From NCBI GenBank assembly GCA_010405405.1, contig MU004238.1, forward strand, positions 2,102,262 through 2,166,261: 64,000 nt of DNA, in the 5' to 3' direction. The translations under genes were made by a program, and so were the position numbers. This DNA is from Microthyrium microscopicum (Eukaryota > Ascomycota > Dothideomycetes > Microthyriales > Microthyriaceae). The notes below the pieces were generated by a model. That model was not told the DNA's origin and did not search any database. It saw only the letters and a program-made list of their open reading frames with translations. Of the stretch, positions 1,506 through 61,410 are shown piece after piece; positions within the stretch are counted from its first letter, which is position 1, and every line of letters starts with the position of its first letter.

Positions 1506-3199
1506 CTATTCTGACAGAAAGGTAAAGCCCAAGATCAGCTTGTCACCTTTCGGAGTGGCCATCATATCATCTAGCTGTTCAATCCCTTCATCATCGATTA
1601 TCGTAGTCTCGTAATTCGTATATATTGCAGCCAGTACAAGCTTGAGGACTATTCCATCATGTTAGCAAGCCGCAAGACTACCCATAGAGTCGCATGAAAC
1701 TTACCAAGAAGTGTAAAGTTGTTCCCAACACACATCCTGCCTCCACTTCCAAAGACCCAGAACCATCGCCGCATATCATTACCTCCTTCGCGTTCAACGT
1801 CTTTCTCATCGCTATCATTCTTCGGCATCCATCTCTTTGGCTTCCACTTGTCTGCCTCAGGATAGATATCTTCATTCCGATGCATGGAATACGGCGAAGC
1901 ACTGATCGTTATGCCAGCAGGTATAAAGTACCCATCAACCGTCGTACCTCCCTCCGGCACCATACGCCGCTGAGGACCAGGAGCCGGAGCATTAAGCCTC
2001 AACGTCTCATGAATAACCGCATCCAACCTCGGCAATCCATCCAACGCCCTCACATTCTCCGTCGAAAACGCCGTCTCATTCGGCAACGGATACTTGAACG
2101 TCTTCCCCAGTCCCAACAACTCCTTCCTCAACGCCTTCTGCACCAACGGCGTCCTCGACAGATGCCACATCGCATACGTAAGCGCAATACCAATACCCTC
2201 CCTCCCAGCCTCAATATTATCCAACAACTCCGACGCAACCAACAACTCCGTCTCCTTCTCCGACTGTGTCCCCTCAATCTTCGGAATCGTCTCTCGTAGC
2301 TGCGCATATACGACCGGAAACGTCTCAATCTGATCATCCTTAACAACCACCCTTCCCTCCAGCGCCAAAAACGCTTCCGTCCGTCGACACATATCCAAAC
2401 ACATATCCTCCAAGTCCTTCGTCGCAGCCTCCTTCCCCCTGAGCTGACGAAACTTCCTCTTCGCAGTCTCCAAATACTCCTTCCGCGCTGTCTCCCGCCC
2501 AGTCCTCACAATATCAATGCCATTCGCAGTCCCCATCTCATACGAGCTAATAAATTCCGCCCCCAACGCACACCCCATCTCGTACACATCACACCCCTCG
2601 CCTGCCAAATTCGTCAATGCGATGGCCGGCAGAAACCGTCGAAACAACAACACAGCCGCCATGGCCCGAAAGTCCTCCGATCTCAACAAATAGCTCTTCG
2701 AGTAAATATTAGACACCATACGTTTTCTCCGCGCATGCGACGCGCCATCGAATAACGTAACCAGGTTCGGCGTGCCATTATAATTCGCAAAAGCAAGAAA
2801 CCACGCCGTCCGCTCAAAGCCGCCCGTATATATCTTCCTCAAGCCATCGAGGGAGGCGACGGAGACTTCGTTGGGAGCGAGTTGGATTATGGGCCCGTGG
2901 GCTTTGTGCGCGGCGGCGATGGTGCGGGATTCGTAGCCGGTGCGGCGTTTGTAGGTGATCCAGAGGGGTGTGAGGGAGGAGGTAAAGTGGGCGGCGGGGA
3001 GCTTGGAGAGCGGTGAGAGGAAGGCTGGGTAGATGATGTAGTTGTAGATGAGATAGCTAAAAGCTAGAAGGAATACTGTGGATGAGAGGGGAGTGAGGGT
3101 GATAGAGCCCCATTCTATCATTTTGATGTTGTTGGCGAGGAAGTTGGAGAGAGATTGATATTGATCTTGGAGTAGAAAGGTGAGGTCAAGCCCCCACAT
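1506..3199 (-). CDS. Cytochrome P450 monooxygenase, membrane-anchored
   Basis: Exon 1 is 3199..1705 and exon 2 is 1648..1506, with a 56-bp intron (1704..1649); the product is 545 aa. Without splicing the frame would end early and lose the usual C-terminal KLVLAAIY..PKGDKLIL stretch. An N-terminal hydrophobic segment (about residues 36-55) should anchor it in the ER, followed by a proline hinge. The K-helix ExxR is E398-T-L-R401, a PxRW segment lies near 455, and the haem loop FGSGGRMCVG places the haem-ligand Cys at about 490. Oddity: the oxygen-binding I-helix reads AGREG (331-335) where AGx(D/E)T is usual, so the conserved Thr is missing. The substrate is unknown. The start lies 136 bp from the end of the decayed TIR element, so its promoter may have been disturbed. 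A downstream Met (residue 27) is an alternative start. Confidence 0.9.
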
Positions 3200-3334
3200 T
3201 TAAATGGCAGGTTTTCTTGGAATTTTTCGCTGGGGTCATGTCATATCTTGTTTATTTATTGATTTTAGTAATGAGAATGCTTAGTAAATTATGTTTTCTT
3301 CGCTCAAATGGGCAAAATTTGTCGCTGTTATTTG

Positions 3335-3353
3335 CATTAGCGGCGGTCTATGG
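3335..3353 (+). repeat. Left terminal inverted repeat
   Basis: Nineteen bases match the right end perfectly as a reverse complement. A weaker inner block (tggtggtt, then aacggttacg, ending near 3393) also matches. The repeat is GC-balanced, unlike the interior, so it largely escaped RIP. Confidence 0.85.
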
Positions 3354-3492
3354 GCCTGGAGAACGGTTAGCTGGTGGTTGAGGAACGGTTACGTAAGCTT
3401 GACGTTTACGCTATAATAACGGTTAATACTCCAACGGATTTCGCAAACATGCTAAGTAATAACCGTTTAAAGCTAATAACGGTTTGTAATAG

Positions 3493-3519
3493 TAAACGTT
3501 TATAAATAATAAACGTTTA
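3493..3519. repeat. Left subterminal palindromes TAAACGTTTA (2 copies)
   Basis: Perfect 10-bp palindromes lie at 3493-3502 and 3510-3519, with related acgttta and aacggtta motifs between 3360 and 3490. Clustered subterminal motifs of this kind are transposase-binding sites in several DNA transposon families; that role is inferred here. Confidence 0.65.
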
Positions 3520-6098
3520 GCGCCTTACAAACGCTTAATAAGCTAAATTTTAGACTAACTAGATTTCCTCAATACAACGCTTAAATTTACCCTACCACGC
3601 TCTAGCGCTACTACCCTACTTACTTATACTAATTAATAAATTAAGATTAGGATAAGTAATTATATTCTACTCTACTACTATACCTTATAGCCATTACATT
3701 ATATTCCACTATATTACATAATACTATAATTAATTTAATTATAGTATCATATAATATGCTAAATCCCTACTCTAGAACCCCTTTCCATACTCTTAGACCT
3801 CCCTAAATTTTAATTACTACTAACAACCCCTTCTTCTCTCCTTTTAGACCTCTTAATACTATAGTAAGATAGTAATAGCTCTAGAGTATATAAGGATAGC
3901 TATAAAGGATAGTATCTTTATTATTATATAGTTAGAAGTAAGCTAGTTAAAAGAGATCCTACTTATAAGCTAGCGTACTATAAAGTTTAAGGGTTAAAGG
4001 AAATACTACTTACTATCTAGGCGTTTTAGACTAGATCTTCATTAGAGCTCCTCTCGTAGAGTAATATAGCCTTTAGAATTAAAGGTAATAGAATAAAACA
4101 TTAAATTAAAAAGACGAGCAATTTTAGAAAGTTCGTAAAGTAATTTAAATAAATAGAAATAAATCTCTAGATTCTGGCAAGTATAGCAATATAAATATTA
4201 TATCTAGCTAATAGCAAGAAGCTAAGCAATTAGTTAGTAATGTCTTATATTATAAGACACTTTAACTATCTAAGGTCTATAGCAACTACTACTAGAAACT
4301 CCTAAAAAGTAGATAATATAAATTAGACGATTATAAAGAACAAAGATCTTAAAAAGATAGAACTCATAGACCTTTATAAGTTAAGTAACAACTACTATTA
4401 GTTAGGCTTTGCCTTAAGGAGGTTATACTATAGATACTATAAATAAAGCGTTAGAAATAATTAAAATTAGTATAGAAAGTAAGAGAGAACTTATCTAAAT
4501 ATGCTCTATAAGTTTAAGATATTTATAATTAAAGCCTATAGAGTTATGGTTAGTAGTTATAATTAGGTTAATATAGAATATATATATTTTACCATATAGT
4601 TAAAGAACTAATAACTAGTAACAGCTCTAGAAGTATTATTTAGTAAGAGGAGACGTAGTTTATTATATATAACTTACCTTTATAATCTAGAAGCTTTCAT
4701 TATATAGGACTTTCTACTATTATACTTAGTTAGTTAGGTATTTAAATTACTCTATGTTACTAATATATATAGGTATAAGGATCAAACTAAATAGCTTTAG
4801 AATAGAGTAAACTAAAGAGAAGGCTCTAAGCAACGTTATAAAGATCTTAAGGTATAATTGCGAGTAAGGATAGTACTATAAGGCTCTATAATAGAGGTTA
4901 GTATTGCTTTATACTAAATAGGACATACTTATAAATAGCTATCTAGTAACGTTAAAAAGACCTATTAAAACATTATTAGCTATATCATATTAGTACAAAT
5001 AATATACCTTTTAAATTTAAAGTATGCTAGTTAATAGATAGTACTATAATTTATTAATATCTAATTAATATAGAGTAGCTAAAAAGATATAATATCTAGT
5101 ACTTATATCTTATAAAAGCAATGTGGCATAGCTTTTCTATATATATAGAAAGATAGGTTAGCTTTATAAGAGTATATATAGTATTAATTTATATATATAT
5201 AGTGCCTTAGGTATAAGCCTACTACTATAAGAGAGAGTCTATAAAATATATTAATTTTAGTATATATAACTGCCTAGAGTAGCTAGTAATAGATTAAGAA
5301 ATACTTAAGTAGTACTAGAGTACTTAGATAAGGTACTATTATCTATAAAGGTTAGTTAGGATATTAATATAGCTATTAGAGGACTTAATAGTATAAAAGA
5401 CGTATAGGTCCTTATAGAGTAGAAATTAACTTATCTACGAGTATATCTTAATTACTTAGATAAGTCTTAATATAAATTAAAATGCCACTAAGGATTAGAA
5501 CGTTAAGAATAAATAGAATTTAATAAAAAAGAGGAGATAGAAGATAAAATAAAGTTAGATTTAGAGGCAAGTAGATAGGTGTGCTAGAAAATTTTTAGAT
5601 AGAAAGAGTAACTACGCTATGCAGATAACTCTAATTTCGTTACTTTAATATATTTAGGTTAGATTTAATGCTCTTTATAATAGTTTAGACTATTTAATTA
5701 GTAATAATACTTGTTTTTTCTATCTAGATTAACCTAAAGACGATTAAAAGCAGCTAATTGCTATATATTTTAGCCTACCATAGGGCCTATTATTAACTTT
5801 CCTTTCTACAAACTACTCTATTATATTACTATTATATATTAAACTACAATATATTTATAAGACTATAGTTAAACGTAAATAACATAATATTATTATCTTA
5901 ATACTTTTTTTAACTATATTAGGAATTCTATTAATACCTAGGGGTCGTAGCACTACTATACTTTATATAAAGCTAAAGTCCTAGTTAATATATAGATAAC
6001 CTTATATCTTTACATTGCTATTAGATAGTTCTAAGCATAAATTGTCTTTAGTCTTAAATAGTAGAAAGTATAAGAAAGTTAAAGAGACATTTTAAAGA

Positions 6099-6660
6099 CT
6101 AATAATCTTAGTTATAGCGTTACCTTAGTTATTAAATTGTTAGCGTAGAATAGCATAACTAGTAATAGGATTAACTTTATTAGTAGCCTTAAGAACTTTA
6201 ATAGAGAAAAAGACATAAGGGTACTTAAAGGCTAGATTATAAATAAGTACTTATTTAATAATGCTATACTTTATACTATAGTAAAGAACTCTATCTCTAC
6301 AACTAAAGATTATATAACGCTTAGATTACCTAAACACTATTAGTTATAATATATAGCTATTAAAGATGCTAAAGTACTTATAGATTAGTAAAGGAGATAG
6401 ATTTACTTTAATATAGAGTCTTAAGAGGATTAAAGTATATACTACGCTTCTTATAGTTAGTCTCATATGCTTTAACTAGTTAGTCTTTAATTAGAAGCTA
6501 GCCTAGATTAGCTATATTAGTATAATAAAGAAGATTATAGTCTTATTAAGTAGACTCTTATATTAGTGCTAGTAATACCTTAATAGCATGATGATTGTTA
6601 GTCGTTATAATATTACTTTTAAAGATCTATCTATACTTTATAACTTTAACTAAGTTAATA
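6099..6660 (+). pseudogene. Unidentified degenerate reading frame inside the TIR element
   Basis: One plus-strand frame stays protein-like for about 185 codons, interrupted almost only by TAG and TAA at positions where RIP would convert Gln or Trp codons. Open pieces include NKYLFNNAILYTIVKNSIST and, later, IYFNIES, IYYASYS and LILVLVIP. I do not recognise the family. A function in transposition or as cargo cannot be told apart. Confidence 0.45.
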
Positions 6661-9434
6661 TATGACTATTATTTAGACTTTAGGAGAAGATAAGCAAAGA
6701 TAATTAGCTTCTCTATATAGAGATCTTAGAGTATCTATATAATATAAGGCGCAATATTTTGTATAGCGCTATTTAGTATAAAGTATAAAGAATGCTACTT
6801 AGCTTTATAAATTAATAGATCTTAATTAGAATTACGCTTATTTATTTTGTAAATTATATCTTTCTAGTTATAATGCTACTTCTTACTAATAAATATAGTA
6901 ATATTACTAGAGTTAATATACTATTTAATAATTATATTACTATATAGTCCTATATAAAAGTTAGGACGCGATTTAACTTTATGATACTTTGTAGCCTTAA
7001 TAAAATTTAGCTTAATAACTACTAGCTTATTTGCTCTAGTACTTATAGGTATAGGTAGAGGGAACATAAAAGATAGTAAAATAGCGCTAGGTAATAGTAT
7101 AGAAGTGCTAGCACTAGGAGCAAGACTTATACTACGACTATAGCTTCCTACTTAATTAGTAGAATAGCTAAAGCTATAAGGATTAGTAGTATAGGTAAGA
7201 GCTATAGCTTTATAAATCTTCTACTAGTATAGATAAGCTTTAATCATTATATTATAAAAGTTCTAATAATCATTATAGCTAATGCGGTTAGTAAGATGTA
7301 GTAGATTTAATTTTGTAATGACTAAGAAGATATAGGCTATAATAGCTTTAGTGAGGATATCTCTATATATATAGTAACCTAGATTAATCTCGTCTTAAAC
7401 TAGTAGTAAGAACTCTAAGACTACTATAAAGCAAAAGAATCAATTAAGATAATCTATACGTAACTATAGACGGCTTATGCCTACTATAATAATTAACTAA
7501 CGACTATATTCTTAAAGTATATAACTACCTAAGTAATAAATAGGGTTCTAGATATAACTTTAGCTTATAGGAGATAAGAAGGATTTAAGGGCATTACTAT
7601 ATACTAACTAGCTTAATAAAAGAAGCATTCTATTTAGAAAGTAGTTATAGAGAAGGTTTGTTAGGCTATTAAGCTTAGAGTAGGCTAGGTCTAATAGCTA
7701 AGAGGTTATAAGATCTAGCATAGGCATAAGTTAAGAGATTACGACTTAAGATAGGATTTATAGTCTTAAAGTAGTAAAATATACGCCCTAAGCACTAGTT
7801 TCTAGGAATACTATATATTCTTATATCTAAATAATCTTATCATAATAGTGACCTTAATATATCGTATTAAACTTAATATTATTATGTTCCTAAGCCTTAA
7901 TATTATAGAAATAATACGCCTTAGTAGAACTAAGTACTTAAAAACTAGAGTTCTAATGCTATTAAAGCATATTGCTAAGAAGGTAATAAACCATAATACA
8001 TAATCTAAAGTTATTACTATTTACATCTTTTATAATAACTCTATGTTTAAGGGCTATAAAGTAATAAATAATAGTATCTATAATGCTATTCATCTTACTA
8101 CTATGTAGGCCTAATGTAAATAGAAGAACGTTAGCCTATTATAATTATTCTATAAATAAGAGACTAGCTAGTATAAAATAGAAGCTAGTTATAGTATGAT
8201 GCATATTTTAATATAAACTAAATCTATCTATAAAAAGATTAATAAGAATTAATTATATTAGTATGTCTAATAAGTAATAATTCTTCTTAAGGAACTTGTA
8301 GCTATAGTAATAGATCTTAAGCTCTATGCGTAGAATAGTACATTAGAAGTATAAGTATAAGCTATGCTTAGGATAATAGATTTAATACATAAACGTGCTA
8401 TTAAGACTAAAGACTAGCTAAACTACTTGCTCTTAGCTATGACGAGGAACTAGAAGAGGAATATTAAGACTAAATTTATTATTAAAATAGAAACGTCTAG
8501 TAGGTAATGCTTTAACTAAAGTATAAATAGCGACATTTACTAGTACGTAGATAATAGTAGTGTTATAAATAAACTACTCTAGTTTGCTAGTAGTAATTTT
8601 TAGTAAGAATAGTCTATAAGCTAGAAGACTATTATTATCTTAGCTAATATTAAGAACGCCTAATTTAGGCTCTAACAAGTAGGTCTTCTTTTTAGTATTA
8701 TACTTAGACTTTAGTTACTAAATACTTTTGTTATAGGCTTTAACTTAGATATATTAAGCTACTAATATTAAGAAGGTTTATTAATTATTACTATAAGTCT
8801 AAATTATAGACCTATAGATAAGCTCTTTAACCTTAAGAATTAGAGTACTAGCTAGATATTTAAAATTAGTAGTAGTACGAAAGTCTTTACTAAAAGTAAC
8901 AACAAGTTCTATATAGCTTTAACTAGGTCTATCGCTAGAATAAACGTTATAATTTACTTTATAATAAGCACAATAAAATATAATTACGTTAGAAGGGAAG
9001 ACTAGACGAGCTTTAACCTTATTTAATAGATTTATAAGCTTAATTACGTCCCTAGAAGTAGCATAAATTAATAAGGCCTAGGCATCCCTATGCTATAGTT
9101 CTTATAGTTTATCTACGAACTTAGCTATACCTATATAAAGCTTTTTACGCATTTCTAGGCTTTTTGTAATAGTAGCAAAAAGATTAATTAGATTAATAAA
9201 ATATATATAATTAGGCAGAGGAGCTTATTGCTTATTCTTTTATTTTAACTACTAGGTTAGAAGTTTAGTTTAATTTAACTCTAGCTTTATATAGCAAAGC
9301 TAGAAAACTAGAATATGCTTATTAACGTGTTACTTTAATATACCTAGTATTATAGGAAGAGATTTAAGCTTAGGAATAATACAATGTTTAAGTAGCTTAA
9401 GTATAGTAAGTAAGCTAAGATAGTTTTAATAAGA

Positions 9435-9785
9435 CAATCTAGCGTCCTTAACCTATAATCCTATAGCTAACTTAAATTTAGTAATCTTATAAGTTATAAA
9501 ACTATAGAGATAAGGTAATAGTTTAGATAGATTATCTTTAATAGGCATACGTCCTAGTAGAGTCTCCTTATTAGAGGTACCTAGAGTAATAGGCTTAATT
9601 TCTTTGTCCTTATTATTAGAAAGATTATTATACGTAGCATTAAGGTTAGTAATCTTTGCTAGCTCTTAAATAGTAGATTTATCTAAAGTCATAAGATTAC
9701 CTAAGTCTTTAACCGCTAGGTCATTAATCTTCTTAATAGATAAGCCTTATAGCTCATTAAGCTAAGAAATAATCTAATCTAAATT
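9435..9785 (-). pseudogene. Unidentified degenerate helical reading frame, minus strand
   Basis: A minus-strand frame of about 115 codons has only a few internal stops. It is rich in Leu, Lys, Asn and Ile, and looks alpha-helical (for example KETLLGRMPIKDNLSKLLPY). Its strand is opposite to the frame at 6.1-6.7 kb, so the element holds at least two genes, or two elements. No family is recognised. Confidence 0.4.
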
Positions 9786-10846
9786 CTAAGCAAAAATTAG
9801 TATAGAGAAGGGCTAAGGAGGAACTATACTTATAAGCTTTATAATATTAACTAGTTCTTTTTCTATGCTTTCTAATATACTATCTATAATATTATTATTA
9901 TCATTAAATAGAGGTTTATTATTATCTTCGCCTATAGGTATATTAATATTATTACTATCTATAAACATTAGCACGTTATTATCTTTATTATAAAGTTATA
10001 AATTAAAAGTAGAAAGCTAAGTTAGAGGTAGTATAATAGATACTACTAGTATATTTTAAAAACCTTACTAATACTTAGTAGGTAGAGGAGGCTACTTAAT
10101 AATTAGATAACTTTATTAAGACGCTATGCTAATAGTCTTAATAAGAAGATCTATAGGTTAAACTATATACTATAGTATAAGAGTTAGTATTAAAGCTCTA
10201 TAGGTAAGCCTAATCTAATTAACGCAACGCGACAAAAATTAACGACGTAGTATAAAAGATTAAGTTCTTAGCGATATATATACTATAGTATTATATAACA
10301 ATTAGAGTAAGTAGTTAATTATAAGTTAAATAATAGGATATTATCTTAATAATTAAAGACGAACGAGTTTAGTAGTAGTTATAGAGAAAGAGGTAGAGTA
10401 AAAGATTTTATAAGTAGTAGATGTAGGGTTTATAGTTTATACCCTACTAGTAAATCTTCTAACTATAAAGCTAGCATAGACTATAAATAGAGATCTCTAT
10501 ATATATTTCTAGATTAACTTTCATTTAATTATTTACGCTATTATAAATAATAAGTATAATCCTATAGTAAAAAATAAATAGAAAGTTAGAAGCTATATAA
10601 GAGACAAAGTATATATTTATATTACGTTTACGCATACTTATAATAGCTATATAATTATAGTTCTCTAATTATAAATATATTATACCTTTGCGTAGTATTT
10701 TAATATACTAGAATTTATAAAAGAGATAATAAGAAGCTAGTAATAACGTAAGACTTTATATATTTTAGTAAGTAGATATTATAAACATTATTTATAAACT
10801 TAAATAACTTACTTATATAAACTATAATTAATTGCCTATATATATA

Positions 10847-11150
10847 ATGTCTTCTCCTTTATAATTCCCTAAGTCTAGTAACTCCTCTCTACCTCTTCTA
10901 AGTAGTCTATTAAGCACTAGGGCTAGTTTAGCTAGACTAGGTCTAGGTTATCTAGATTTTATAGATCTTATAGCTATGTTTAATAGCGTACTAACTAGTA
11001 AGTATAAAGATTATAAAATTGTACTAGTAGTTAATTATTATAGCTATAGTAGCTATTACTCGCCTCTAAGAAGTAATGAACCTAGTGTTAGTTACCTTAT
11101 TATTACTAGTAGATATAGTAATTATGTTATTAAAAGCCTACGCGTTTAAA
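10847..11150 (+). pseudogene. Unidentified degenerate reading frame with ATG
   Basis: From an ATG at 10847 the frame meets one stop at codon 6, then is open for more than 90 codons, long for such AT-rich DNA. The open part is Ser/Leu-rich and then Tyr-rich (for example LARLGLGYLDFIDLIAMF). A second protein-like stretch rich in Glu and Lys follows in a shifted frame near 11150-11220, suggesting a frameshift or a lost intron. No family is recognised. Confidence 0.35.
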
Positions 11151-14079
11151 GTATAAGTTAAGGAGCGCGTTATAAAAGAATTAATAGACGTAGAGATAGA
11201 GGTAGAGAAAGATAATACCTAAGATAGAGAATTAGTATAATATTAGCCTATATAGATATAAAATAAAGTTACTTACGCTTATTAATAATAATATTCTTAT
11301 AGTATACTAAATACTTAACCTATTACCTTTCCTAAATAGAAAAGTAAGCCATAAGCTACTAGATATATTAACTAGTTTATTATTAAGCCTAATTATTACC
11401 TTTAATATTAGCTATTATTACAAGTTTGCTAATATGCTTACTAGAGGCTTTCTCTTTAGTGTATATAATATAGGTAATATAACGCCCTATATTAAAGTTA
11501 AAGTTAAAGCTAAAGATATTAAAGAGAAGAATATAGGTATAGATAACCTAGAAGTAGTAGATAGGATTAAATCTTAAAAGATTTATAGTATAGATAGATA
11601 GCACTTAGTAGCTAGCGTACTCTTTAGTTAATTTAATAAGGTAGCTAAATCTATAAGTCTATAGTTAGTAAATATACTATACTAATCTTAATAATATTAG
11701 TATACTAATCCTAGTAAATAGTATAAAGGCTTATATATATACAATACTAGCTAGCTTAGACTACTTAGAAAGTAGACTAAGAGTTAAACTAAGGGTTAAA
11801 TTATAACCTAAATTAAGAGTTAAACTAGGCAATCTAAGTACTTAATTAAGACCCTATATTACTATATATAGTAAAAGAAGATCTAGTAGTATAGTAGGAA
11901 GCACAAGAGAAGAAGTAAGCATTATTATTATAATAAATAAAAGCTAAGATGTTATTAATATTAGCTATTATACTATAAGAATAATAAAAGAAAAGTATAT
12001 AAGCATATAAAGAAATATATAATATAAGGTTAGTAGGATTAAAGGAGGTAGGTAAGTAAATAAATAGTAAGTAAAGAAGGAGTATAAGAACATAGAAAGA
12101 GATATATAATAAGAGGTTAGCAAGATTAAGGAAGATAAAAATACTAACTCTCTAGTTCTTTAGGGGCGATAGTTATACTACTATAAAGACTAGTAATATC
12201 TAGTCTTTTTATTATAACTCTACTACTACTAGATTTACTAGTTAACTATATAAAATCGCACAAAGTTAAGCTATTAAAGAAAGCATAACTAGGTGCTAAA
12301 TTCTAGTAGGCAATTATAGCCTTATTAGCTACTATCTTAGCGCTAGAATCTATAGCTAGGATATATATAGCAGTCTTATATACTAGATTAGTAAAGAAAG
12401 CTAAAAACATTAATCTATAGTTATAATATATATATTAAGTATATATAGCTTACTTTTAAGGTATCGCTAAGCTAGTAGCTTTAAGTTTTTAATATTAATA
12501 TACTTATCTATAAATTTAAAAACTTTAAAAAAATTTATAGGAGTATAATTTTACTATAATTAGGCTATTAGGCTAGCTAAAGACTCTAGAGAAGAAATAA
12601 ATAGTCTAGGATGTTAACTAAGATAGTTAGTTATATAGATCTACATTATATATATATTAGTAAATTTTATATATAATAGTAAGTAATAGATTAAAGTTAG
12701 AAGCAAGGTATAATAAATAACTAAAAGATTAAAGCTATAGTATACTATGCTATAAAATAATATAGCATAATAGCATAGAATAGAATAAAGAGACATAAAG
12801 ATATAAATATATAATAATATTAAGAGTTTATGATAGATATATTTACTTATATTTATATTTTTATAGGTAGCATTACTAAAACTATATATATTTAAGTCCT
12901 AGAGCTAGGCTACTTAGGCTTAAGGAAGGTTTTTAAGGCTATATTTCTTAGATAGCTAAAGTTCTTTAAAAACTTTATTTTTAAATATTTTATTTGTATA
13001 TATAAGCGTATAAAAACGTATTTAATAGGCTAAAAGTTTTATTTTATGGGCTATCTTATCTATAGAGTTAATCTATATACTATAATTAGCTTACTATTAC
13101 TTAAACTTATACTACTATCTATATAATACTTTATTTTAGTAAATATTAACTATTAACTAGCTATATATACTCTCTATAACGAAAGATAGCATTATAGGTA
13201 GTAAACATAGTTAGTAAGTTAATAGTTACTAAAGCAAAGTATTATATAGATAGGTAGATAGATTAATAGTCTAGATATAGCTTACTTTTAGTATAATTAT
13301 AGTATTAGCGTTATCTATGCTACTAGTAGTACCTAGGTAAGTATACTTCTTTACTTACTCTTCTTTAAAAGTAGTAAGAGTAGCTAATTGTTTCTTATTA
13401 GTCTAGTAAGGGATTAGGGCGCTAAGTATAATATAGAGTTTTTCTTTATGAGCCTATATAATATATTAGATAAATACGCTAGTATTAATTATATACTTAG
13501 AAGATTATAATAGTTATAGTATATAGTAAGAACATTAAAGCATAAGTAGAATAATGTATAAGAGTCTTAAGCAAGATATAGTAATAATTAATATATATAT
13601 AGTAGTAGAGTAGAAAAAGATAATTATAATAGCATATATATATAAATAATTTAAAATATAAGTAGATATATAAATATAGATATAATTTACTTAATTTAAA
13701 CTTAAACTATATAACTTACTTTTACCTAATTAACCTTAAGAAAGGCTACGAAAAGAGCTAGATTAAGCTTAATATTATTACTAACTTCTCTAAAGCCTAA
13801 TATAGTAAAGAAAACGTAAAAAAAAGGGTAGTAAAAATAGGAATTTAATAACGCGTAAAATAAGGTAGTAGGAGTATATAGGCAGTATAAGACAAAATTG
13901 TATTTATTATCGTAATTACTTTAAAATCTATATCTATAGTTTTAACCTTTAGAGTTAAGGTTATTGCTAGCTAATATTATAATATACGTTTATAAGTACT
14001 AAGTAGTTATGATTAGTTAAGGTTAGCTAATATAAACTACTAACTATATATAGCCTTTAATTAACTAATAATACAATGC

Positions 14080-14167
14080 TAAACGTTTATTTGTATGTAA
14101 ACGTTTATCTCTCTTAAACGTTTATAAATCTTACGGTTCATAAACCACAATTTCTTATAAACGTTTA
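14080..14167. repeat. Right subterminal palindromes TAAACGTTTA (4 copies)
   Basis: Perfect copies lie at 14080-14089, 14098-14107, 14115-14124 and 14158-14167, within 200 bp of the right inverted repeat. They mirror the two copies at the left end. Their conservation inside heavily mutated DNA is notable, although the motif contains no CpA or TpG, which would shield it from RIP. Confidence 0.65.
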
Positions 14168-14261
14168 CAAACGCAAACACTTATAAATATCCACGTTTAC
14201 TCGATTTTACCGTTGACTAACAGAACTATCGTAACAACCGTTGATGAACCACCATCTAGTT

Positions 14262-14280
14262 CCATAGACCGCCGCTAATG
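14262..14280 (-). repeat. Right terminal inverted repeat
   Basis: Exact reverse complement of 3335-3353. The inner block with aaccaccat and aaccgtt at about 14234-14256 mirrors the left side. Unique-looking DNA resumes at 14281. Confidence 0.85.
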
Positions 14281-14488
14281 TGGTTCAGAGGTTGTATGTA
14301 CCAATTTTCCGTGCTACTTTCGAAGCACCTCTAATATCAAAGAGATACCATTTCGAATGTCTTTCCAATCAGAATCTCTCATAATAGTAATTATTCTATT
14401 TTGCGTCTACATAACACCATATATTCGCATCAAATATCGCTATACGCTAATCTCAACGCTCAACAAATTAGAGTAATCAACAACCAAA

Positions 14489-44551: not shown

Positions 44552-44760
44552 TATTATTAATACTTTTAACTTTCTTTTTTACTAGCTTATTATTAGATAC
44601 TAGGGTAGCTTATTTTAAAAGTATTACTAATAATTTTATATTACTCTTATTCTATATCTCTATATTACTATTAATCTTATTTTTTATAGGCTTATCTTTA
44701 TAAATAGAAGTAGCTAATTTTAGTAGTACTAATAATAACTTTTCTTTAATCTTATCCTAT
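44552..44760 (-). repeat. 105-bp tandem repeats, left fragment (2 units)
   Basis: One clear unit (44657-44760) and a more diverged one (44552-44656) belong to the array that resumes at 61130. On the minus strand the unit reads as 35 codons with one stop, for example KDKPIKNKINSN then NRIKEKLLLVLLKLATS. It is cut by the outer LTR element at 44761. Confidence 0.65.
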
Positions 44761-60764: not shown

Positions 60765-61123
60765 TAGAGATTAGGATTATAAAGTAGATAAGAAGGTTAT
60801 AAAATACTTAATAGATTAAATATATAGAAATAGAAATAAGAGTAATTACTAAGGAACTATAAAGAGATTCCTTAGCCTCTATCTTATTACCTAAAAACCT
60901 CTAAGGTTCCTCTCTAAGCTAAAGTAGTTTATCTATAAGCTAAGGTACCTTAAAAGTACGCTTAGCTACTAATTATAATAGTTAAGGACCTATTAATTCT
61001 CTTAACTATAGAATATACTAAAGCTAAAGAAGCAGCTCTACTAACTTCTAATAGCTATTAGGCTAAAGCACTTAGGCTACAATGCCTATCTTAGAGAGTC
61101 CGTTAGGTTTACTATCTAATATA
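60765..61123 (-). repeat. Outer element LTR, right (5' LTR)
   Basis: About 359 bp. It is the 5' LTR because gag and pol read leftward from it on the minus strand. Confidence 0.8.
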
Positions 61124-61129
61124 TCCTAT

Positions 61130-61410
61130 ATCTTTATATTACTATTAATCTTATTTTCTATAGGCTTATCTTTATAGATAGAAGTAGTTAGTTTTAGTAG
61201 TACTACTAGTAACTTTTCTTTAATCTTATTTTATATCTTTATATTACTATTAATCTTATTTTTTATAGACTTATCTTTATAGATAGAAGTAGCTAATTTT
61301 AGTAGTACTACTAGTAATTTTTCTTTAATTTTATTCTATATCTTTATATTACTCTTAACCTTCTTTTTTTAAGGCTTATCTTTATAGATAGGAGTAGCTT
61401 ATTTCGCTAA
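61130..61410 (-). repeat. 105-bp tandem repeats, right fragment (about 2.7 units)
   Basis: Units start at 61131, 61236 and 61341, an exact 105-bp period; the third decays after about 70 bp. The minus-strand reading is 35 codons per unit (KDKPIENKINSNIKI, then NKIKEKLLVVLLKLTTSIY), with one stop where Gln is likely. A 35-residue period in frame shows this was coding sequence. The family is not recognised. Confidence 0.7.

Follow-up and report, generated by a model that had tools for sequence, protein, structure and literature searches.

Plant CACTA/EnSpm transposons are about 10 kb long, have CA..TG ends, carry repeated motifs in their subterminal regions and occur with short deletion derivatives; usually their ends read CACTA and their insertion duplicates 3 bp. 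The locus described here occupies positions 3335-14280 of a 64-kb stretch of contig MU004238.1 of Microthyrium microscopicum (the window, meaning the whole 64,000 nucleotides analysed). It resembles the plant elements in its CA..TG ends, subterminal motifs, size and short forms and differs from them in its CATTA ends and 2-bp duplication. The block is one mobile element, a DNA transposon, belonging to a small family. With a probability of about 0.75 we regard it as a full-length large cut-and-paste transposon, most likely of the CACTA/EnSpm-Mirage-Chapaev-Transib group (CMCT), near Sly1-1 and PlavakaB. The source on the group (PMC12730594) gives mostly CA..TG ends and 2-5-bp duplications, and transposases with a DDE triad in which C(2)C and H(3-4)H motifs lie between the second D and the E. 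PlavakaB, described from Agaricomycotina, has CATCA..TGATG ends and duplications of 2 or 3 bp (PMC12730594). Sly1-1 of Neurospora crassa is an 11,534-bp element that encodes a CMC transposase and has one other gene; it is accompanied by two mutated copies of ~12 kb that lack reading frames. The text on it mentions the third nucleotide of the duplication, which implies a target-site duplication of at least 3 bp (PMC4592977).

The window element is 10,946 bp long and intact at both ends, which are delimited by the following features:

3333-3334, no strand: left target-site duplication, TG
3335-3353, plus strand: left terminal inverted repeat CATTAGCGGCGGTCTATGG, exact over 19 bp
14262-14280, minus strand: right terminal inverted repeat, an exact inverted match to CATTAGCGGCGGTCTATGG
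14281-14282, no strand: right target-site duplication, TG

The exact 19-bp inverted repeats reported in a first-pass annotation of the window are present at these positions. Six 19-mers have their own reverse complement within the 64-kb window as well; the five besides CATTAGCGGCGGTCTATGG are all AT-rich and three of these form one overlapping palindrome. The looser extension of the repeats to about 60 bp, put forward in the same annotation, proved weak: without gaps, only 15 of the 41 positions from 20 to 60 agree, and the gapped score is reached by 8 of 1000 shuffles. The coincidence of the block edges with a switch in composition holds: GC content is 25% in the element interior against 48% in the flanks, and the best two-boundary fit (3446-14190) falls 111 and 90 bp inside the element ends. 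The 2-bp TG duplication is a sharper mark of the boundary than the composition switch.

The genome searched comprises 36.9 Mb in 20 contigs, with the window at the end of contig C9. The comparison of ends covers the six loci at which both ends were located:

Window 3335-14280: window copy, 10,946 bp, target-site duplication TG/TG
C1:344826-345543: C1 copy, a short form of 718 bp, target-site duplication CA/CA
C11:506620-527965: C11 copy, enlarged by other sequence, target-site duplication GT/GT
C2:3059902-3071909: C2 copy, a full-length relative of 12,008 bp, target-site duplication TG/TG
C3:2538945-2582291: C3 copy, spanning 43 kb and enlarged by other sequence, target-site duplication CT/CT
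C2:1437574-1449423: C2b copy, a full-length relative of 11,850 bp, target-site duplication CT/CT

At all six loci a duplication of exactly 2 bp lies outside CATTA...TAATG. CATTA stands at 11 of the 12 ends; the exception is CATTT, at one end of the C11 copy. When left and right flanks were re-paired, six matches were obtained in 4 of 720 arrangements, namely the true pairing and swaps of equal pairs. Because the six loci share the end type and the 2-bp duplications, the block is one mobile DNA transposon, as the first-pass annotation had proposed; that annotation named the lack of a second copy with these ends as one observation that would count against a transposon, and other copies with the same ends are present in the genome. 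What had been an unexplained AT-rich block can now be described as an element whose limits are exact, whose duplication length is established and which has a probable transposase.

The 16-base core TAGCGGCGGTCTATGG has exactly five occurrences in the genome, four of which are the ends of the window element and of the 718-bp copy on C1, while the fifth is one end of the C11 element. With up to two mismatches the same core gave 18 matches against 15 for a reversed control, which is near background, and only exact or context-proved matches were therefore counted. The left end of the window element matched two other places and the right end matched itself only. Relatives of the interior lie at two C2 sites and within a single C3 region. 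The search with the whole interior gave at least 19 matches, 15 to the C2 and C3 relatives and four elsewhere, each of the latter at most 122 bp long; these counts are lower bounds, and the window itself was absent from the output.

The interior is dominated by one long coding remnant:

5852-9803, minus strand: transposase gene remnant of ~1,300 codons, in a frame shared with the relatives

The best six-frame match between window 6363-9803 and the C2 element reaches 493 bits, with 43% identity over 1,180 columns, against 237 bits for the next frame. Similarly, the same minus-strand frame at window 6942-9785 matches the C2b element with 332 bits, against 154 for the next best frame, and the transposase match continues in a second frame at ~5852-6460. 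The main frame (6363-9803) is interrupted by 79 stops in 1,147 codons (42 TAA, 36 TAG and 1 TGA). Every transposase copy seen is broken: a protein search of the genome returned 17 match places with 9-65 stops each, a search with another family member returned 16 places, overlapping the former list, with at least one stop each, and no intact copy was found in the genome. The minus-strand frame from ~9803 to 5850 reads as having once encoded a DDE transposase of ~1,300 residues, with a presumed catalytic role.

The interior also reads as carrying the signature of repeat-induced point mutation. CpA and TpG stand at 0.30 and 0.20 of expectation in the interior and near 1 outside the element; the interior TpA/ApT ratio is 1.66, and the composite index is -0.94 in the 500 bp from 14300. 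Between the transposase parts of the C2 and C3 copies 127 of 129 differences are transitions, as are 21 of 26 between the left end of the window element and the right end of the C1 copy, and 68 of 108 and 9 of 19 between the C1 and C11 copies. Transitions were counted in seven pairings without a shuffled control, and C2 and C2b were aligned over 20 columns only. An unchanged A after the C/T, or an unchanged T before the G/A, accompanies 29 of the 127 C2-C3 transitions, a low share that may reflect saturation. The mildest of the four copies measured by the CpA index are C1 and C2b.

The ends and duplications found here, CATTA at 11 of 12 ends and 2 bp at 6 of 6 loci, fall within the CA..TG and 2-5 bp of CMCT. 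By the description of PlavakaB (PMC12730594), CATCA..TGATG there corresponds to CATTA..TAATG here and duplications of 2 or 3 bp to 2 bp here, and C(2)C, placed after the second Asp and before the Glu, corresponds here to candidate columns only. In contrast, the exact CATCA..TGATG sequence is not found, the ends here reading CATTA or, at one, CATTT. Sly1-1 was compared by its published description. By that description (PMC4592977), the two elements are alike in length (11,534 against 10,946 bp), in pairing a transposase with another gene, for which the second conserved block described below would stand here, in low copy number and in the presence of mutated copies of ~12 kb without reading frames; they differ in the duplication, at least 3 bp against 2 bp, and in the intact copy, which was not found here.

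Candidate catalytic residues were read through mutation, as D/N, D/N, C/Y in CxxC spacing and E/K, in a 12-row protein alignment that included eight fetched transposase match stretches. Asp-or-Asn columns lie at window codon ~8228, where 4 of 11 rows have Asp, and at ~7973, where 7 of 12 do. They are followed by two Cys-or-Tyr columns in CxxC spacing, with Cys in 3 of 12 rows at codon ~7916 and in 2 of 12 at ~7907, and by a Glu-or-Lys column at codon ~7511, with Glu in 8 of 12 rows.

Several results weigh against this reading of the locus. The threshold applied to these columns is passed by seven Asp-or-Asn and nine Glu-or-Lys columns, so that the catalytic triad is our choice among candidates. 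No conserved pair of His-or-Tyr columns at the H(3-4)H spacing was found in the 12-row alignment, which is weak evidence because His codons become Tyr codons under this mutation. Pfam and NCBIfam scans of read-through frames, which in the window covered one plus-strand frame per stretch and the transposase frames, returned no transposase. Genome searches with the Pfam profiles Transposase_21 (PF02992) and Plavaka (PF18759) found nothing, with uninformative controls and heavily mutated copies; the silence of the Plavaka profile is a difference from PlavakaB that broken copies could explain. Sequence searches of the PDB with two profiles gave 0 matches, and the AlphaFold prediction for the core of the C2b transposase, with a mean predicted local distance difference test score (pLDDT) of 31.6, was useless and supports nothing. 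In the Sly relatives, by their description, the homologues of NCU09969 and NCU09968 are divergent, whereas here the two conserved blocks probably lie on one strand, in a noisy signal. Finally, the older lineages do not differ predominantly by transitions (window against C2 element, 313 of 749; window against C2b element, 112 of 210); the lower transition share in pairs other than C2-C3 indicates that those pairs also differ by older changes.

The element is most likely a fairly ordinary one, a relative of the known CACTA, Sly and Plavaka type. We infer its family membership from the ends, the duplication, the size and the motifs: it works like Sly and Plavaka and most likely belongs near them, and we stop short of claiming proven membership of either. 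The first-pass annotation saw no obvious family, which stands in that the profile libraries name nothing; the ends, duplication length, size and motifs nevertheless place the element probably near CACTA, Sly and Plavaka. That these elements form a separate CMCT lineage, distinct from Sly, PlavakaA and PlavakaB, with CATTA..TAATG ends, a strict 2-bp duplication and three end-sequence subfamilies in one genome, is a tentative proposal and a rather doubtful one. Origin in a cut-and-paste group outside CMCT, sharing the end type and duplication length by chance, would suit the lack of a profile match to any CMCT family and the missing H(3-4)H motif. It appears unlikely, since CA..TG ends, a 2-bp duplication, a length of 11-12 kb and a CxxC pair lying after the second Asp and before a late Glu jointly fit CMCT as set out in the sources (PMC12730594, PMC4592977). 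The rule of CATTA...TAATG ends with a 2-bp duplication can be used to find relatives in other fungi despite a coding part that profiles do not recognise.

The ends can also be parsed as those of a TA-duplicating transposon (Tc1/mariner-like, ESTA or PHISTA), whose terminal repeat would start with GCGG and whose target preference would be CAT/ATG, in the target CATTAATG. A reading with TA on both sides is possible at five of the six loci. This parsing is very improbable: it leaves the matching outer dinucleotides of all six loci to chance, at ~6e-8 for 1 in 16 per pair, TA is missing from one end of the C11 copy, and CTG stands at a C2b end where the repeat start GCG is predicted. The TA duplication of Tc1/mariner, ESTA and PHISTA elements was rejected, as the non-TA dinucleotides outside CATTA match in 6 of 6 loci.

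A second block is conserved in the interior of the element:

11766-13156, minus strand favoured, uncertain: second conserved block, common to the C2 and C3 relatives and partly to C2b

The minus strand, which is the transposase's own, gives the better reading of this block, at a high level of composition noise; the block probably represents upstream exons or another gene. No clear frame shared with the relatives was seen in the left part of the element (3560-5950) or in its middle part (9780-11780). In the window, C2 and C2b elements the shared blocks are collinear and similarly spaced, and because the conserved blocks are collinear in relatives of near-equal length (12.0 and 11.85 kb) the window copy is considered unnested. 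A length of ~11 kb thus appears to be natural for the element, and the window copy showed no sign of a nested insertion or of cargo. That a short non-autonomous element was swollen by nested transposon insertions is scarcely credible here: the C11 copy is such a case, being of the 718-bp type and split by ~20.6 kb, and the C3 copy spans 43 kb, but the window blocks are ordered and spaced as in the 12.0- and 11.85-kb relatives and the matches of the interior search, at least 19, were 15 to the C2 and C3 relatives and four others of at most 122 bp. The first-pass annotation had offered several genes, cargo or nested insertions to account for the size; several genes are possible in view of the second conserved block, whereas cargo and nesting find no support in the window copy beside two collinear relatives of near-equal length. 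A TET/JBP cargo gene is present in some fungal transposons (PMC12730594). None was seen in Pfam scans of C2b outside the transposase, a weak result in mutated sequence.

Between the related ends of the C3 copy (C3:2538945-2582291) there are at least three occurrences of the second conserved block, and part of the sequence reads N. The right part of the window element contains a further feature:

13115-13253, no strand: hairpin of 139 bp with 37-bp arms, 92% complementary, with a related sequence at C2:1944813-1944927

This hairpin is perhaps a small insertion or miniature element. Among the profile listings for the read-through frames, DUF5527, DUF2851, THAP9_C, MgtE_N and SidF (E 0.039-1.5) were taken as sub-threshold noise. 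Viral contigs scanned with an 11-row profile yielded 83 pattern matches, none of them a relative.

Both ends of the window element are bordered by clusters of short repeats:

3354-3545, plus strand: left subterminal region carrying short repeats; identity to the right end of the C1 copy (718 bp) is ~85-88%
14080-14261, minus strand: right subterminal region, with AAACGTTTA at 14080, 14098, 14115 and 14158 and AACGGTT at 14236

In the left region AACGGTT lies at 3362, 3384, 3418, 3461 and 3478 and AAACGTTTA at 3493 and 3510. Within 300 bp of the element's ends AAACGTTTA and AACGGTT are thus each present six times, and neither occurs inside; shorter forms of the motifs are found in the interior (AACGTTT once, ACGTTTA four times). 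Similarly, the C2 element carries AACGCTT/AAGCGTT 11 times within 300 bp of its ends and not once inside; C2b showed no end cluster for the five motifs tried. The right 190 bp of the 718-bp element match the left end of the window element at 88% identity. Most of the remaining interior of this short form is unmatched there, so that it is not a simple deletion of the window copy, and it probably used the enzyme of a relative. A DDE transposase would bind the short repeats near the ends (AACGGTT and AAACGTTTA), excise the element and reinsert it elsewhere with duplication of 2 bp, and an enzyme of the same kind would also mobilise the 718-bp form; the copies would afterwards have been mutated by repeat-induced point mutation.

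In the C11 copy, an insert of other sequence, ~20.6 kb long and with inverted ends resembling ATAGGTTAGG, splits an element of the 718-bp type. The insert junction is duplicated over ~9 bp and the insert itself holds other repeats.

The element lies between the two genes named in the first-pass annotation, an amino-acid permease gene (minus strand, 3' end ~14489) and a P450 gene, both of which were recovered:

1649-3335, minus strand: P450 gene, with possible start codons at 3199 and 3121

The left end of the element is 136-214 bp upstream of these possible start codons, and an insertion polymorphism at this site could be tested for an effect on the P450. From 41900 to 64000 the window holds a longer AT-rich, strongly mutated block that extends to the contig end, with a GC fraction of ~0.2 and CpA/TpG at 0.03-0.08 of expectation; no telomere repeat was seen in the last 300 bases of the window. 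Window 54657-63156 matches a repeat stretch of C11 with 81% identity over 8.6 kb. Two tandem arrays of 105-bp units that look similar by eye lie in this AT-rich contig end, at window 61122-61404 and 44561-44760.

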